From Desulfotomaculaceae bacterium (GTDB lineage Bacteria > Bacillota > Desulfotomaculia > Desulfotomaculales > Pelotomaculaceae): 38,061 nucleotides of DNA. The stretch spans positions 1 through 38,061 of the forward strand of contig JAQVGZ010000015.1 in assembly GCA_028696455.1 (NCBI GenBank). Reading direction: 5' to 3'. A program made the translations under genes and the position numbers. Positions 16,249 to 37,883 of the stretch are shown one piece after another. Numbering within the stretch: position 1 is the first letter of the stretch; each line of letters starts with the position of its first letter. A model generated the notes under the pieces. That model saw nothing but the letters and a program-made list of their open reading frames with translations, was not told where the DNA came from and ran no database searches.

Positions 16249-16278
16249 TTGCTCTAAAATTGTGAATTAATGTATACT
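16249..16278 (+). promoter_or_regulatory. Possible housekeeping promoter
   Basis: TTGCTC (16249-16254) and TATACT (16273-16278) are 18 bases apart, just upstream of the riboswitch. The -35 box is weak. Confidence 0.35.
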
Positions 16279-16287
16279 TACGTAGGG

Positions 16288-16427
16288 CTGGCTACATTAT
16301 TGCCGAATCCCAATAAATATTCGACTGGGTACGGGGGAACCATTAATGGGGTGAATCCTTAGTTGGGTCTGATGGCCCAACCTGGGTAGGGTATCTTTTA
16401 CCGAACCCGTCAGCTAACCCCGGAGGC
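16288..16427 (+). promoter_or_regulatory. c-di-AMP riboswitch (ydaO-yuaA type)
   Basis: The conserved ydaO blocks appear in order: TTGCCGAATCC (16300-16310), TACGGGGGAACCAT (16330-16343), TGGGGTGAATCC (16347-16358), GGGTAGGG (16384-16391), then CCGAACCCGTCAGCTAACC (16401-16419) and GGAGGC (16422-16427). The exact P1 ends are approximate. This class normally turns gene expression off when c-di-AMP is bound and controls cell-wall hydrolases and potassium or osmolyte transport. Here it lies immediately before a secreted Cys-rich protein gene, with AGAAAGGGG as ribosome site, so control could act on translation or through an alternative terminator that I did not resolve. Confidence 0.85.
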
Positions 16428-16448
16428 AAAAAAGAAAGGGGAAAAAAT

Positions 16449-16829
16449 ATGGCCAGAAATAGCAAGCGCATCCTTTTAGTAACTTCACTTTGTCTCTTCA
16501 TGCTTTTTGGTGTTCTCGCCAATGCGGGCGCAGCAACGATTTCCAATCCATTTTATGATTGTACGTCTTCACAATGTCCGGGAGCGGATCAGTATGGTAA
16601 TATCCTTACCCAGCAATGTGATACGGCAAACTTATGGGCAAATTGCCCGTCATTGACATCTTTGAGCAACTGTATCCCACAGTGTAATGCGGCTGATGCA
16701 AGCCAGCAAAATTGTGCGCCGTCACTGTGCTTGAGCAATTTTAGCTCACCATGTGGCAATCAGCAAGGCCCATGTGTTAATTCGTTATCAATTAACTCAC
16801 TCTTAAAAGGCCTGCAGCTGACAAGATAA
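16449..16829 (+). CDS. Secreted small cysteine-rich protein
   Basis: I do not recognise a family. The 126 residues comprise a signal peptide (about 1-28, with LLVTSLCLFMLFGVLANAGA and cleavage near AGA-A) and a mature part of about 98 residues with ten cysteines. The cysteines occur mostly as NC, QC or PC pairs (DCTSSQC, NCIPQC, NCAPSLC, PCGNQQGPC), suggesting five disulfides or metal binding. The mature protein is rich in Asn, Gln and Ser and weakly charged. The gene follows a c-di-AMP riboswitch and ends at a strong terminator, so it is a dedicated unit. A role at the cell wall is plausible because of the riboswitch class, but is inferred. Confidence 0.75.
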   Translation: MARNSKRILLVTSLCLFMLFGVLANAGAATISNPFYDCTSSQCPGADQYGNILTQQCDTANLWANCPSLTSLSNCIPQCNAADASQQNCAPSLCLSNFSSPCGNQQGPCVNSLSINSLLKGLQLTR

Positions 16830-16880
16830 TCGTTTCTTTAGTAAGTTATAATTTGTAAGCTAGCCCAAAAGGTTAAATAA

Positions 16881-16924
16881 ACAATAAACCCAAAGGATAT
16901 AACAGCTTTGGGTTTATTGTTTTT
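16881..16924 (+). terminator. Strong rho-independent terminator
   Basis: A perfect 15-base stem, 16881-16895 with 16906-16920, followed by TTTT, about 50 bases after the stop of the Cys-rich protein gene. Confidence 0.92.
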
Positions 16925-17079
16925 ACCTTTAAATTTCTCCGGTCAAAAAAGCTTTTTGGCGAGTTTCATGATATTTTAGAGAAAATATCGGGATATTTTA
17001 AGTTAAAGATGTTAAAATAGTTTTGTTATATAACAAATCAAAATTACAGTCTTTATAGCGGAAACGGAGGTAAATGATC

Positions 17080-19019: not shown

Positions 19020-21713
19020 TTAACCTACCTTTTCCAATTTAACAGCGCATACCTTGTATTCCGGAATCTTGGAAATTGGATCTCGGGCTGGATTGGTTAA
19101 TTTGTTAATTGGTACATCAGGGTATTGGAATGATGTGAACACCATACCCGGTGTTATGGTATTGGTAACCCTGGCGGCAACCTCTACCTGGCCGCGGCGG
19201 GACGCTACTCTTACCCTGTCCCCGTCAAAGATGCCAAGCTTTTCTGCATCAAACTCATTTATCTCCAGGTATTCCATCGGGTAAAATACCTCCATGGCGC
19301 CAGTCCGGTGGGTCATCGTGCCGGTGTGATAGTGGTATCTTCTGCGTCCGGTACTGAGCACAAACGGATATTCCTGATCTGGCACTTCATTGGGCGGAAT
19401 GTGCTCAATTGCATGGAACTTACCCAGACCGCGCGTAAATTTGCCGGCGTGCAGGAACTTGGTGCCTGGATGTTCGGGCGTTGGACAGGGCCACTGCAGG
19501 CCGCTTTCCTCTAAACGGGCAAACGAGATTCCGCCATAAGAAGGAGTGACTGTGGCAATCTCAGCCATAATGTCTCCAGGCGAGCTGTAGCTCATTGGGT
19601 AGCCCATGGCTTCTGCCACCAGACAGATGATCTCCCAGTCAGGCTTGTTATTTCCTATTGGTTCTATAGCCTTGCGCACCCGCTGGACTCTGCGCTCGGT
19701 GTTACTGAAAGTGCCGTCTTTTTCCGCAAAGCTGGCCCCGGGCAGGACTACATCAGCCAATTGCGCTGTCTCGGTCAGGAAAATATCCTGCACCACCAGG
19801 AATTCCAACACTTTAAGTGCACGAACTACATGGTTTGCGTCCGGGTCGGACAATACCGGGTTTTCACCCATGATATAGATACCCTTAATCCCCTTGCCTG
19901 CTTCATCGAAAATTTCGCCAACAGTCAGGCCGGGTTTGTCTGGGAGTTCACTTACATGCCAGGATGCGCAGAATTTAGCCCGGTTAGCTTCAACATTAAC
20001 CGGCTGGTAACCGGAAAAAACATTGGGAAGCGCACCCATATCGCATGCGCCCTGGACGTTGTTTTGACCACGCAGGGGATTTACCCCGCTGGACAACTTG
20101 CCGATCTGACCGGTAAGCAAGGTCAGGTTGGTAATAGCAAGGACGTTGTGGGAGCCGCAAACATGCTGGGTGACACCCATGGTATAGAGGATGGTAGAAC
20201 TTTTCGCCAGCGCGTAACCTCTGGCCACTTTCCGGATAGTTTCAGCGGGCACACCGGTAATTTCGGCAACATATTCGGGTGTATAACCGGCTATAGTATC
20301 TTTTAAGGCTTCGAAGTTTTCTGTGCGTTCCTCTATAAACTGTTTGTTCAATAGCCCTTCTTCTATGATCACATGGGCAATGCCGTTAAAAAGTGCAATG
20401 TCAGTACCTGGTTGAATCTGCAAGTGATATTTGGATAATCTAGCCACATCTGTCCGCCGCGGGTCAACCACGGCCAGGGTAGCTCCCTTTCGAACGGCTT
20501 TTTTTACCTGGATTCCCACGATTGGGTGGGTATCAAAGGTATTGGTACCGACAGCGAGTATAAAGTCTGCATCAGAGATTTCTTGAATGCTGTTGGTCAT
20601 AGCGCCGCTGCCAAATGCCGCCCCCAGACTGGAGACGGTAGGAGCGTGTCAGAGGCGGGCGCAGTGGTCGATATTGTTGGTGCCGATCACTGCCCTGGTA
20701 AGCTTGCTCAATAAATAGTTTTCTTCATTGGTACAGCGGGCTGAGGAAAGAACGCCAATGGAGTCCGGGCCGTATTTCTGCTTAAGGCCTCCCAATTTTT
20801 CAGCGACCAGGCTGATGGCCTCATCCCAGGTGGCTTCCACAAACTCCCCATTCTTCTTGATCAGTGGTGTTTTCAGCCGGTCCGGGTGATGGATGAACCC
20901 GGCGCCGAAGCGGCCTTTTACACACAGGGTCCGGCCATTTACTTCACCGTCCGTAGAGGTAACCCCGATTACTTTGCCGTTTTTGACATTTAAGTCGAAG
21001 GTGCAGCCGACACCACAATAGGGGCAAGTAGTTCGCACCTTTTTCACTTCCCAGCGGCGGCCCTGGCCAAGCATTTGTTTTTCGGTCAGGGCGCCTGTCG
21101 GACATACCGCAACGCAGTTGCCGCAAAAAACGCAATTGGAGGTGGCTATTGCGCTTAAAGGCGTATCCAGGGCGGGCATTACTTTAGCGTCGAAACCCCT
21201 GTAAGCAACACAAATCGCGCTGTTGCCCTGGATTTCCTCGCACATCCGGACACAATTGCCGCACATAATACATTTGTTCAAATCCCTGACAATGAAGGGG
21301 TTGTCGTCTTCAATTGGATACCGGTGCTTTTCACCCTCGAAAGCGCCAAAATCTGCGCCGTAATCATAAGCATATTGTTGCAGGCGGCACTCGCCACTTT
21401 TGTGGCAGTGCAGACAGTCAGATGGATGGTTTGATAATAAGAGTTCAAGATTAATTTTCCGGGCTTTTAAGACTGCCGGAGAGGCAGTATGGACGACCAT
21501 GCCATCGGCAGCCTCAGTTGCACAGGAGGCCGGTAAATTGCGGATACCCGGGATCTCTACCACACACATGCGGCAGGCGCCTGGTTTACTTAGCTCAGGA
21601 TCGTAGCATAAAGTGGGGATTATAATTCCCACTTTTCTGGCAGCATCCAGTACCGAAGTGCCTTTAGGCACAGTGACTTTGATGCCGTCTATGGTAAGAG
21701 TAACTTCTGCCAT
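19020..21713 (-). CDS. fdhA: Formate dehydrogenase catalytic subunit, selenocysteine-containing
   Basis: Oxidises formate (or reduces CO2) at a Mo- or W-bis-pterin centre. The 897-residue frame is interrupted only by UGA at 20651-20649, in HCARL-U-HAPTV (residue 355). This is the position of selenocysteine in E. coli FdhF (recalled as CARVUHGPSV), so I read through it. N-terminal domains: [2Fe-2S] ferredoxin (Cys36, 47, 50, 64), His-Cys3 cluster HPSDCLHCHKSGEC (96-109), two [4Fe-4S] motifs CIMCGNCVRMC (148-158) and CVFCGNCVAVC (194-204), then the catalytic [4Fe-4S] motif CPYCGVGC (230-237) and the molybdopterin domains. There is no Tat signal, so it is cytoplasmic. The layout matches NAD- or ferredoxin-linked and hydrogenase-linked FDHs, but no partner electron-transfer subunit adjoins. 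It follows a Moco-type riboswitch, with AAGGGGG nine bases before ATG. Confidence 0.95.
20618..20651 (-). promoter_or_regulatory. UGA selenocysteine codon with SECIS-like hairpin
   Basis: The UGA codon is at 20651-20649. Ten bases downstream an eight-pair stem forms: CCGTCTCC (20638-20631) with GGGGGCGG (20625-20618), two of the pairs being G-U, around a loop AGTCT. A bacterial SECIS needs a hairpin just after UGA with a small G/U-containing loop for SelB; E. coli fdhF has AGGTCT. Spacing and loop therefore fit. Confidence 0.8.
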
Positions 21714-21736
21714 CGATAATAACCCCCTTAATCGCT

Positions 21737-21830
21737 ACTCCTTTCCAAATATGGGAGGCGCAGTCGTTTCCCACTGCACCCTGAACGGCCGGCCACCATT
21801 CCTGAAGGCTCAGGCGGCCAGGCTCGGAGT
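21737..21830 (-). promoter_or_regulatory. Moco/Tuco-type riboswitch upstream of fdhA
   Basis: Read on the minus strand: P1 arm ACTCC (21830-21826), then CTCCGAGCCTGG, a small hairpin CCTGA/TCAGG, CAGGG, a hairpin GCAGT-GGGAAACG-ACTGC, then GCCTCCC, TTTGGAAAGG and the closing P1 arm GGAGT (21741-21737). This is the block order of the molybdenum cofactor RNA motif. It starts just after the stop of the OB-fold protein gene and ends 23 bases before fdhA. There is no room for a separate terminator, so translation control is most likely. The presence of the extra CCTGA hairpin favours the Moco over the Tuco subtype. Confidence 0.85.
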
Positions 21831-21844
21831 ATTTATTTCTAAAG

Positions 21845-29533: not shown

Positions 29534-30520
29534 TTACTTTACACGCTCGACAATCTCAGTCTTCAAGTTTGGCACAAGAGCCGGATAGTCAATCTTCTTT
29601 TTGTTGGTCAGTGGATAAACCCCATAGAATGGCTCGCATTCATCCGGGAAATTAGGTTCCGAACAGGCCTGACAGGGCGCCCCCGCCTTAATGCACCAGT
29701 TCGTATTATTATTCCAGCCCCGCTTGTCGCAATCCGACATGGCTATAAAACCCTTACAGCCGAGCAACGCCAGGCAGCCCTCACCACTAATATGCCGGGC
29801 AAACTTATTGTCATCAAAGTAACTGCGCCGCGAGCAACGGTCATGAATGGGGCCGGGATAAAACATCTTGGGCCGCCCGAGCCGGTCTAACTCAGGAATT
29901 TGGCCATATTTCAAAACGTAAACTACGGTCCCTAAAAAGTGATCCGGGTGCATTGGACACAGAGAGATATTAATAACCGGCTTCTTTTTGACCACCTGAT
30001 CTACCCCTACCACCCCTGTGGGGTTAGGCACTCCGGCGGGGATACCGCCATAAGCAGCGCAATTACCGGCTGCAATCACCGCCTGAGACGCCTCGCCAAG
30101 GGTAGTGACCGCCTTTAGCATGGTCAGCTCCTTGCCGTTTTTTTCAGCAATGGTGCAGTAGATACCCTTGTCCTTCGTAGGAATGCCGCCTTCAACCACC
30201 AGAATAAACTGGTCCCTGTATTTAGCTGTTGCCTCCTCCAAGACCTCAACAACGTGATGTCCCGCCCCGGCACTGATATTTGGGTGATATTTCAGGCCAA
30301 TCACATCGAGAATTACTTTTTCAATCGCTGGGTCAACACTGTTCAGCAATGAAATAGAACACCCCGTGCAACTGGCTCCCTGCAGCCAAATTACCGGAGG
30401 CTTGCCATCGGCTGCGTAAGCCAGTGTTTTTTCCATTTCCGGGCCAAGGATAGAAATTAGACTTGCCCCGATTGTGGAACTCATACACAGCTTGATAAAT
30501 TCCCGCCGTGTTAAACCCAT
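29534..30520 (-). CDS. hynS: [NiFe] hydrogenase small subunit with Tat signal
   Basis: Electron-transfer subunit holding three iron-sulfur clusters. The 328 residues begin with a Tat leader TRREFIKL and a hydrophobic stretch (about 1-36), so it is exported folded, carrying HynL. The proximal cluster motif CTGC is at 51-54; further cluster residues lie in SLCPMHPDH, DRCSRRS, GCLALLGCKG and CQACSEPNFPDEC. AGGAGG lies seven bases before ATG. Preceded by about 240 bases of leader containing a terminator-like hairpin and a Moco-type riboswitch, an unexpected regulator for a nickel-iron enzyme. Confidence 0.95.
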   Translation of the reverse strand: MGLTRREFIKLCMSSTIGASLISILGPEMEKTLAYAADGKPPVIWLQGASCTGCSISLLNSVDPAIEKVILDVIGLKYHPNISAGAGHHVVEVLEEATAKYRDQFILVVEGGIPTKDKGIYCTIAEKNGKELTMLKAVTTLGEASQAVIAAGNCAAYGGIPAGVPNPTGVVGVDQVVKKKPVINISLCPMHPDHFLGTVVYVLKYGQIPELDRLGRPKMFYPGPIHDRCSRRSYFDDNKFARHISGEGCLALLGCKGFIAMSDCDKRGWNNNTNWCIKAGAPCQACSEPNFPDECEPFYGVYPLTNKKKIDYPALVPNLKTEIVERVK

Positions 30521-30677: not shown

Positions 30678-30762
30678 CAATGGCTATCAAAGTTATTTGC
30701 TTGACAGCATGGCACTGTGCAAGTATCTTGTACACTTGATAGCGCTTCAGTAAAAACAATGT

Positions 30763-30854
30763 TCTCCTTTCCGCACTGGGAGGCATAACCGTTTCCAGGT
30801 ATACCCTACAGACCAGGCAACCGTTTTAAACCACCAGGCAGCCAGGTTCGGAGA
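30763..30854 (-). promoter_or_regulatory. Moco/Tuco-type riboswitch upstream of hydrogenase hynSL
   Basis: On the minus strand: P1 arm TCTCC (30854-30850), then CTCCGAACCTGGCTGCCTGG, GCCTGG, TAGGG, hairpin ATACC-TGGAAAC-GGTTAT, then GCCTCCC, GCGGAAAGG and closing arm GGAGA (30767-30763). Same block order as the fdhA element, but the middle hairpin of the Moco type is not clear, nearer the Tuco subtype. Sits after the hydrogenase protease gene (stop at 31012), about 240 bases before hynS, with a terminator-like hairpin between. Confidence 0.8.
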
Positions 30855-31011
30855 TTGTTTGTTGGGTGACGGCCTGCTTTATTGCTGTGGGCCGGTGTGT
30901 CATGTTGCGCCGATTGTAGGAGGTACGAGTAAACGCTTTCCTTGAATATAGCATTAATAAAGAAATTCATCTATGAGTTATGTCTAAAAACCACAAAATC
31001 ACGAATATCTC
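30855..31011. other. Promoter region of the hynSL leader
   Basis: About 155 bases between the protease stop and the riboswitch. AT-rich near 30950-31000, where TATATT occurs, but no convincing -35 and no sigma-54 box were found. It probably holds the hynSL promoter if transcription does not simply continue from the hyp operon. Confidence 0.35.
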
Positions 31012-36415: not shown

Positions 36416-37153
36416 TCAAATTAAAGTGTTTGTGTTTATCGGTGCCATGAGCTGCTTTAACTGCCCGGCAAAATTTGAACTCCAAAGCCTGTCCATATCC
36501 CCCAGAGCGTTTTCCAAATCAAGGTCAAAATCTACTGAACCCAAGAATGGCACGCCCATCATAGCCGCCTCGTCCTTGACGGCAGTATTTTCACCGGTTT
36601 TCATATTTTCCAGCACACCCACCACTGGCTTGCCCAATTCCTGCAACACCTGCAGCTCTTTTTTCATTACCGACAGGGCCACCCGGGACCTAGTCGTCAC
36701 GACCAGGAACTCTACTCTTTTAACCAGCCGGATGGTATCCATCGCCGGATCACCGATTCCCGGCGGCATGTCAATAATCAGAAAATCAAGCTCATGCCAC
36801 TGGGTAATAGCCAGGAGTTCAATGATGGCATTGGACACCTCACTCCCGCGCAGCGGGGCGGGGTTGGCGCCTGTAAAATAAATAATCGACATAAAGCTAA
36901 TCCCGCTTACCACCGGGGGAATTAGGCCTTTTTCCTCGACCGGATAAACATCTTCGATGCCCAGGATTACATGCCCGGAGGGACCACAAAAGTCCAGGTC
37001 CAGTAAACCTACCTTAAAGTTCTGCTTAGCCAGGCTCATGGCCAGGGCGGAGGCCGTTATACTCTTGCCGATGCCCCCTTTGCCACCCGACACGGCAATG
37101 ATTCTTTTTACCTTCTCCAGCCTTTTATCAATAATATTCAGCCTTGGATCCAT
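36416..37153 (-). CDS. hypB: Mrp/MinD-type ATPase in the place of HypB (ATPase-type HypB)
   Basis: Likely the nucleotide-driven partner of HypA for nickel delivery. The 245-residue SIMIBI ATPase has the deviant Walker A GGKGGIGKS (23-31), LLDLDFCGPSGHVIL (Walker A', about 50-64), DFLIIDMPPGIGD and VVTTRSRVAL. It lacks the C-terminal CxxC of ordinary Mrp/Nbp35 scaffolds, and the His-rich and Cys-His nickel motif of GTPase HypB. It overlaps hypA by one base and precedes hypF, the normal position of hypB. The sequence closely resembles the Thermococcus ATPase-type HypB as I remember it (LLDLDFHGASDHVILG). No GTPase HypB is in the window. The symbol is by role, not by homology to E. coli HypB. 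Confidence 0.85.
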   Translation of the reverse strand: MDPRLNIIDKRLEKVKRIIAVSGGKGGIGKSITASALAMSLAKQNFKVGLLDLDFCGPSGHVILGIEDVYPVEEKGLIPPVVSGISFMSIIYFTGANPAPLRGSEVSNAIIELLAITQWHELDFLIIDMPPGIGDPAMDTIRLVKRVEFLVVTTRSRVALSVMKKELQVLQELGKPVVGVLENMKTGENTAVKDEAAMMGVPFLGSVDFDLDLENALGDMDRLWSSNFAGQLKQLMAPINTNTLI

Positions 37154-37566
37154 TATTTCTCACCCTCAATATATTCAATCCATACCCCGCGCCCTTTGGC
37201 GAGCTCAAAATCAGGGCTGCCGCAGGCCGGGCACCGCAGGTAGATATGCGCCATCTCGGGTATGAAATGGATTGCCTCCGCTTCGGGCTCAGGTAATCTT
37301 CCTACTGCCTCGCTGTAGCTCCACTCATTCCCGCAAACCTTGCACTTTAAAAAACTTGGGTCGATTTCTATGGCTATTCGATTAAAATCCATTTGCAGGG
37401 CAGATAATTGTAAGATATTTTCCAGCGCCAACTTAAATATATTCAGGTCTATTTGCTGCAACTCGCCGATCATGATTTTAACAGCGGTGATCTCTTTTAG
37501 TTTTTCTTTTTCAGCCTCTTGCGCGACAGTGTAAATAACTGATTCTGCTAAAGCCCACTCATGCAT
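37153..37566 (-). CDS. hypA: Nickel chaperone HypA (archaeal-type zinc insert)
   Basis: Delivers nickel to the hydrogenase large subunit. The 137 residues begin MHEWALAESV, Met1-His2 being the nickel ligands. The zinc site is Cys75/Cys78 (CKVC) and Cys112/Cys115 (CPAC). The 33 residues between the two CxxC pairs are far more than the 13 usual in E. coli HypA. The insert carries IHFIPEMAH and the end is FELAKGRGV, which I recall also in Thermococcus HypA (IHFIPEVVH, KGRGV). ATG 37566 is chosen over a 43-codon upstream extension, which would run back into the leader terminator at 37662. Preceded by GGGGATGTGAC, a weak ribosome site. Confidence 0.93.
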   Translation of the reverse strand: MHEWALAESVIYTVAQEAEKEKLKEITAVKIMIGELQQIDLNIFKLALENILQLSALQMDFNRIAIEIDPSFLKCKVCGNEWSYSEAVGRLPEPEAEAIHFIPEMAHIYLRCPACGSPDFELAKGRGVWIEYIEGEK

Positions 37567-37661
37567 TTTGTCACATCCCCGCCCTGTTTTTTCTAATACG
37601 GCCTGGCTGGTCTCATTGGTAGAAAGAATTCCCGGTACTCCGGCCCGGGAGATAATGTTAC

Positions 37662-37693
37662 AAAAAAGCTTTGTCCAAATAAAAGGACAAAGC
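37662..37693 (-). terminator. Terminator in the hypA leader (riboswitch expression platform)
   Basis: On the minus strand GCTTTGTCC (37693-37685) pairs perfectly with GGACAAAGC (37676-37668) around an eight-base loop, followed by TTTTTT. It starts 20 bases after the riboswitch and ends about 95 bases before hypA, so it can end transcription before the operon. Confidence 0.92.
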
Positions 37694-37712
37694 ATCTTTG
37701 GTAATCAGGCTT

Positions 37713-37801
37713 TCCCCTTTCCACAATGGGAGGCGCATTAGTTTCCCAATACACCTAAGGCCAGGTATCCGTACTTTAGCTTAGGCTGCCTGGCTCGGAG
37801 A
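37713..37801 (-). promoter_or_regulatory. Moco/Tuco-type riboswitch upstream of hypA
   Basis: On the minus strand: P1 arm TCTCC (37801-37797), CTCCGAGCCAGGCAGCC, CCTAAG later pairing with CTTAGG, CCTGG, hairpin GTATT-GGGAAAC-TAATGC, then GCCTCCC, GTGGAAAGG and the closing arm GGGGA (37717-37713). Blocks and order match the fdhA and hynS elements. A textbook terminator lies 20 bases downstream. Confidence 0.85.
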
Positions 37802-37883
37802 TTATAATAATTTTTTTTATTCTACTAACCCGGGTAAAACTCCTTCAGAAATTTTGAAAAAAGTGCTAAAGATCAGTCAGTAA

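Follow-up and report, generated by a model that had tools for sequence, protein, structure and literature searches.

The window analysed here is a stretch of 38,061 nucleotides from a Desulfotomaculaceae bacterium. Its positions 16249-16924 hold, in this order, a promoter, an RF00379 aptamer, a Shine-Dalgarno (SD)-like AAAGGGG, an ATG, a 126-codon open reading frame (ORF) and a terminator:

16249..16278, plus strand: promoter, TTGCTC (16249-16254), 18-nt spacer and TATACT (16273-16278), read from the sequence
16291..16443, plus strand: c-di-AMP riboswitch aptamer (ydaO/yuaA), RF00379, found with cmscan
16432..16441, plus strand: SD-like region (AAAGGGG and neighbours) within the 3' tail of the aptamer, read from the sequence
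16449..16829, plus strand: ORF of a small secreted Cys-rich protein, 126 aa, from the ORF list
16879..16922, plus strand: intrinsic terminator, 17-bp stem (16879-16895/16906-16922) followed by a U run, from the fold

The sequence-only reading had recognized the conserved blocks of a ydaO-type riboswitch at this site, and the covariance search that it proposed returned a strong match (16291-16443) to the full RF00379 model, positions 1-134, with a score of 85.6 bits (gathering score 38) and an E value of 9.4e-19. The aptamer forms the 5' leader between the promoter-like 16249-16278 and the ATG at 16449, and only 5 nt separate the end of the model (16443) from this start codon. The SD-like AAAGGGG falls in the unpaired 3' tail of the model, and AAAGAAAGGGG is common to most Cys-rich and CAP (PF00188) aptamers at this region. 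A search of 16291-16449 found no terminator-like site between the aptamer and the start codon; the locus therefore lacks the intrinsic terminator that characterizes a terminating ydaO expression platform. The genome to which the window belongs also carries two diadenylate cyclase domains.

The gene ends with its own terminator, as had been claimed: the hairpin at 16879-16922 has a dG of -21.7 kcal/mol and a z of -6.2, and 0 of 200 shuffles equalled it. Given this strong terminator and a leader that has none, the transcript should be monocistronic. The next ORF on the plus strand begins at 17074, beyond the terminator, and the predicted transcript end precedes any known target of the class.

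The 126-aa protein starts with a signal peptide at approximately residues 1-28, which shows K/R residues, a hydrophobic core and an AxA motif (MARNSKRILLVTSLCLFMLFGVLANAGAA), passes a sequence heuristic for Sec export and is conserved in all seven intact copies described below. The mature part, of about 98 residues, contains 10 Cys, 42% Q/N/S/T and few charges, and one further Cys lies in the signal peptide. No match was found for the window protein in Pfam, NCBIfam or PHROGs at E<1, neither CAP (PF00188) nor LysM/Hydrolase_2 domains being present in the Pfam search, and no relative was found in the PDB. AlphaFold2, run on six sequences, predicted no fold for the mature part and only a helix for the signal peptide (mean pLDDT 41). 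One homologue gave a weak RicinB_lectin_2 match, which at 22.2 bits fell short of the cut-off of 25.6, contained no stretch passing it and was judged to be compositional.

The taxonomic family of the window, comprising 25 genomes, was searched for copies of the Cys-rich gene. Besides the window copy it yielded six intact ones, spread over G006 (two copies), G008, G014, G015 and G016, the last three of these five genomes belonging to g8; G014 and G015 are identical within the gene. The seven intact ORFs thus come from six genomes and three genera. A search with the family alignment recovered five named Pelotomaculum loci (PtaB.Bin104, PtaU1.Bin035, PtaB.Bin013, P. terephthalicicum JT), which put the copies in the lineage of these syntrophic bacteria. 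A single-sequence search of GTDB contigs with the window protein gave no relative, and profile searches covering the order (113 genomes) and the phylum (398 genomes) gave no additional intact member. Weak extra matches in the order and the phylum, with the exception of the decayed locus L148, were rejected as relatives, as they cover mainly the signal peptide and those that were checked have no riboswitch.

In every intact copy (7/7), an RF00379 aptamer lies 4-6 nt 5' of the ATG, and the same -35/-10 motif, TTTGC[TG]..TATACT, precedes the gene at the corresponding position. The orthologue search thus bears out both the placement of the riboswitch directly ahead of a short signal-peptide gene and the proposed link between the two. 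A stem-loop 3' of the gene is present in most copies, and no common neighbour gene was apparent in the flanks read around them, so that the riboswitch and the Cys-rich gene look like one unit. The conserved parts of the protein are its signal peptide, a short tail at the C terminus and repeats resembling NC-x3/4-QC. The mature cysteines, in contrast, number 10, 9, 8, 15, 11, 11 and 8 in the seven copies, and their spacings differ. Since both count and spacing vary, five conserved disulfides can be excluded as a trait of the family, which does not show the conserved, even number and spacing of cysteines expected of a five-pair disulfide-rich protein. Of the five Cys pairs described from the sequence alone, the ten mature cysteines of the window copy stand, while their pairing is putative; the homologues have 8-15 in the mature part, often an odd number.

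The mature part is repetitive and diverges rapidly, so that one might take the ORF for what is left of a riboswitch-CAP gene, decaying or without function and preserved by chance. The resemblance of its signal peptide to those of CAP proteins and the existence of one truncated copy (L148) would fit such an origin. However, intact ORFs persist in six genomes and three genera, and dN/dS in diverged pairs with estimable dS is about 0.19 to 0.65, mostly 0.27-0.5, the lowest value (~0.19) being that of L007 against L009, whose dS is near saturation. These values, all below 1, indicate that the ORF is coding and under relaxed purifying selection. The C-terminal tail, the NC..QC motifs and the promoter are also conserved, as is, in most copies, the stem-loop after the gene. 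The decayed copy itself (L148:1456-1727, G007:C140) joins the promoter to the 3' part of the coding sequence and the terminator region; about 320 bp are missing, and the aptamer, the RBS, the start codon and the first half of the coding sequence, including the signal peptide, were lost together. We consequently regard a chance remnant as very improbable.

The RF00379 search of the same 25 genomes returned 111 matches, and a downstream gene could be assigned for 110 of them. Aptamers ending 0-12 nt before the start codon were defined as RBS-proximal, and target classes were assigned by motif, Pfam having been run on representatives only (L003 for LysM, L004 for CAP). By these definitions, 62 of the 110 aptamers overlap the RBS, and all 62 precede genes encoding secreted proteins: 29 of LysM type (mostly LysM/Hydrolase_2 by appearance), 26 of CAP type and the 7 Cys-rich ones. 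Distal aptamers lie mostly 80-320 nt from the gene, and their targets belong mostly to transport and metabolism (lysine-2,3-aminomutase-like, KimA-like, TrkH/KtrB-like, OpuA-like, dehydrogenase and other genes); only 2 of the 48 that are assignable precede a LysM-, CAP- or Cys-rich-type gene, in both cases CAP. The association of layout with target class gives a Fisher p of 5e-29, a value that counts related genomes as independent. In the wider order, proximal aptamers also precede mostly LysM or CAP genes, with a few aminomutase-like exceptions. The genome of the window reproduces this division with its five aptamers, those of the citrate synthase and aminomutase-like genes being distal and those of the LysM/Hydrolase_2, CAP and Cys-rich genes proximal. 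The 3' strand of P1 differs between the two layouts in the family, being mostly CGGAGGC in proximal and mostly CGTAAGC in distal aptamers; the CGGAGGC type may be class-specific and tied to control at the RBS.

With regard to the mode of control, the overlap with the RBS, the leader devoid of a terminator and the precedent of nlpC in C. glutamicum together point to translational repression by c-di-AMP. In that species, c-di-AMP lowers the amount of this secreted wall peptidase while its mRNA is unchanged, through a translational riboswitch (PMC9960051). The nlpC leader likewise has no terminator, its target is wall-related and control is proposed to occur at the RBS; its target, however, is an NlpC/P60 peptidase, and its anti-SD-type model lacks covariation support here. 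Transcriptional control, in which c-di-AMP would cause termination or pausing in the aptamer region and the RBS overlap would be incidental, has the best-studied ydaO members on its side, as these terminate (e.g. ydaO of B. subtilis). Moreover, rpfA of S. coelicolor has no canonical terminator, yet its transcription in vitro gave terminated products, as discussed in PMC9960051. Against transcriptional control stand the leader, in which nothing resembling a terminator lies between the aptamer and the start codon, the mere 5 nt from the aptamer model to the ATG and the sorting of proximal and distal layouts with target class, and we consider this mode unlikely.

An ON switch appears somewhat less likely still. 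It would require that the AACCCCGG strand pairs with the SD in the ligand-free state and that c-di-AMP draws this strand into the aptamer, which would free the SD. The minimum-energy fold of 16285-16480 does pair an aptamer CCCC with the GGGG of the SD, and the CCUC/GGGG of L007 and L008 could pair through G-U. Yet this fold is not better than those of shuffled sequences (z -0.8) and takes no account of the ligand or of tertiary contacts, one pair is broken in L009 (CCCC against GGAG), and no covariation for an anti-SD pairing was found among proximal aptamers in a search of 173 aptamer tails. Furthermore, the characterized ydaO members in the literature examined are OFF switches.

We therefore favour translational repression and consider it likely that 16249-16924 is a self-contained c-di-AMP-regulated gene whose translational switch, presumably OFF, governs a secreted protein acting most likely at the envelope. 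Its own promoter would give rise to an mRNA whose ydaO-type leader aptamer ends on the RBS. At high c-di-AMP, the ligand-stabilized aptamer, with its P1 helix beside the SD, would presumably block ribosomes. When c-di-AMP falls, the Q/N/S/T- and Cys-rich protein would be made and exported by Sec, alongside the LysM/Hydrolase_2 hydrolase and the CAP protein, and could serve as a flexible, Cys-containing component of the wall or surface needed in wall remodelling. The response to the ligand and its sign, the translational mode, and the location and role of the protein are what we infer from the arrangement described above.

Since the aptamer accompanies every intact relative found, the Cys-rich protein very likely belongs to the envelope genes controlled by c-di-AMP. 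The RBS-overlapping aptamers with which it keeps company are those of LysM/Hydrolase_2 and CAP genes, so that it extends the known cell-wall arm of the regulon. The placement of RBS-overlapping aptamers on secreted wall proteins and of distal ones on K+, osmolyte and metabolic genes further suggests a division of labour, in which c-di-AMP would act on translation in the wall arm and in some other way in the transport arm. Because the mature part evolves rapidly and no fold is predicted for it, regulon membership is the sole basis for assigning an envelope role. A flexible, Cys-bearing exported protein that would be made together with these wall proteins is most simply a component of the envelope, and this is the weakest step of our interpretation.

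The known targets of the RF00379 class are transporters, osmolyte enzymes and wall hydrolases. The window locus resembles members of this ydaO/yuaA class in its full-length aptamer, conserved blocks, leader position and promoter directly upstream, but its target is a small Cys-rich secreted protein. In Clostridium, ydaO lies immediately ahead of SleB3 (LysM-LysM-Hydrolase_2) genes (PMC5083711), and the genome of the window has a gene of this kind under a proximal aptamer (L003); the Cys-rich protein differs in having no enzymatic domain. The riboswitch has also been tied to wall-remodelling enzymes such as COG3773 (PMC3766115). The closest parallel within the same family is offered by the CAP proteins under proximal riboswitches, which share the RBS tail CGGAGGC..AAAGAAAGGGG and, in G011-G013, have a similar signal peptide, whereas the Cys-rich protein has no CAP domain and a mature part made of short Cys/Q/N/S-rich repeats. 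The sequence-only reading had regarded such a protein as an unfamiliar target, and in agreement with this our search of the open literature, which did not extend to the primary ydaO target lists, found no paper tying the class to a Cys-rich secreted protein. The riboswitch class is thus already known, and the Cys-rich target is new as far as the open literature goes. It adds to the envelope outputs of c-di-AMP among syntrophic Firmicutes. Riboswitch targets offer a route to the function of uncharacterized genes, and a family whose members are always under c-di-AMP control can be approached from this side although its secreted protein could not be interpreted otherwise.

As regards its origin, the Cys-rich signal peptides of g8 (G014-G016) have matches of 46-53% among the riboswitch-CAP proteins of a sister genus (G011-G013), in their signal peptides, and no match to LysM signal peptides was found at E<0.01. 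This similarity suggests a 5' module shared by Cys-rich and CAP genes. The aptamer tree gives the Cys-rich branch no clear origin and speaks neither for nor against such a module. We tentatively raise the possibility that this lineage-specific, low-complexity secreted family is a dedicated c-di-AMP output, which arose when the riboswitch-RBS-signal-peptide module of a CAP-type gene became fused to a Cys-rich tail made up of repeats. If true, the c-di-AMP regulon of syntrophic anaerobes would gain a structural or matrix protein that carries thiols outside the cell.

Several minor observations concern other riboswitches. In the genome of the window, at L001:1501-3136 (G000:C9), a c-di-AMP riboswitch precedes a gene for citrate synthase (PF00285) at a distance of 127 nt; to our knowledge, this enzyme has not been described as a ydaO target. 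At L068 (G006:C170), L071 (G006:C250) and L173 (G049:C36), the proximal aptamer, RBS and ATG open a short ORF, possibly a leader peptide under c-di-AMP control, and a CAP gene with its own RBS follows about 100 nt further on. The window itself contains three Mo/W-cofactor riboswitches (RF01055), at 21722-21841, 30748-30865 and 37698-37812, all on the minus strand. They stand before a formate dehydrogenase, the small-subunit gene of a [NiFe] hydrogenase (29534-30520) and hypA (37153-37695), the latter two being nickel-enzyme rather than Mo-enzyme genes. The reading frame of the large subunit of the formate dehydrogenase (19020-21713, minus strand) is interrupted at ...DHCARL*HAPTV... by an in-frame TGA, which we take to be the expected selenocysteine site of this enzyme.
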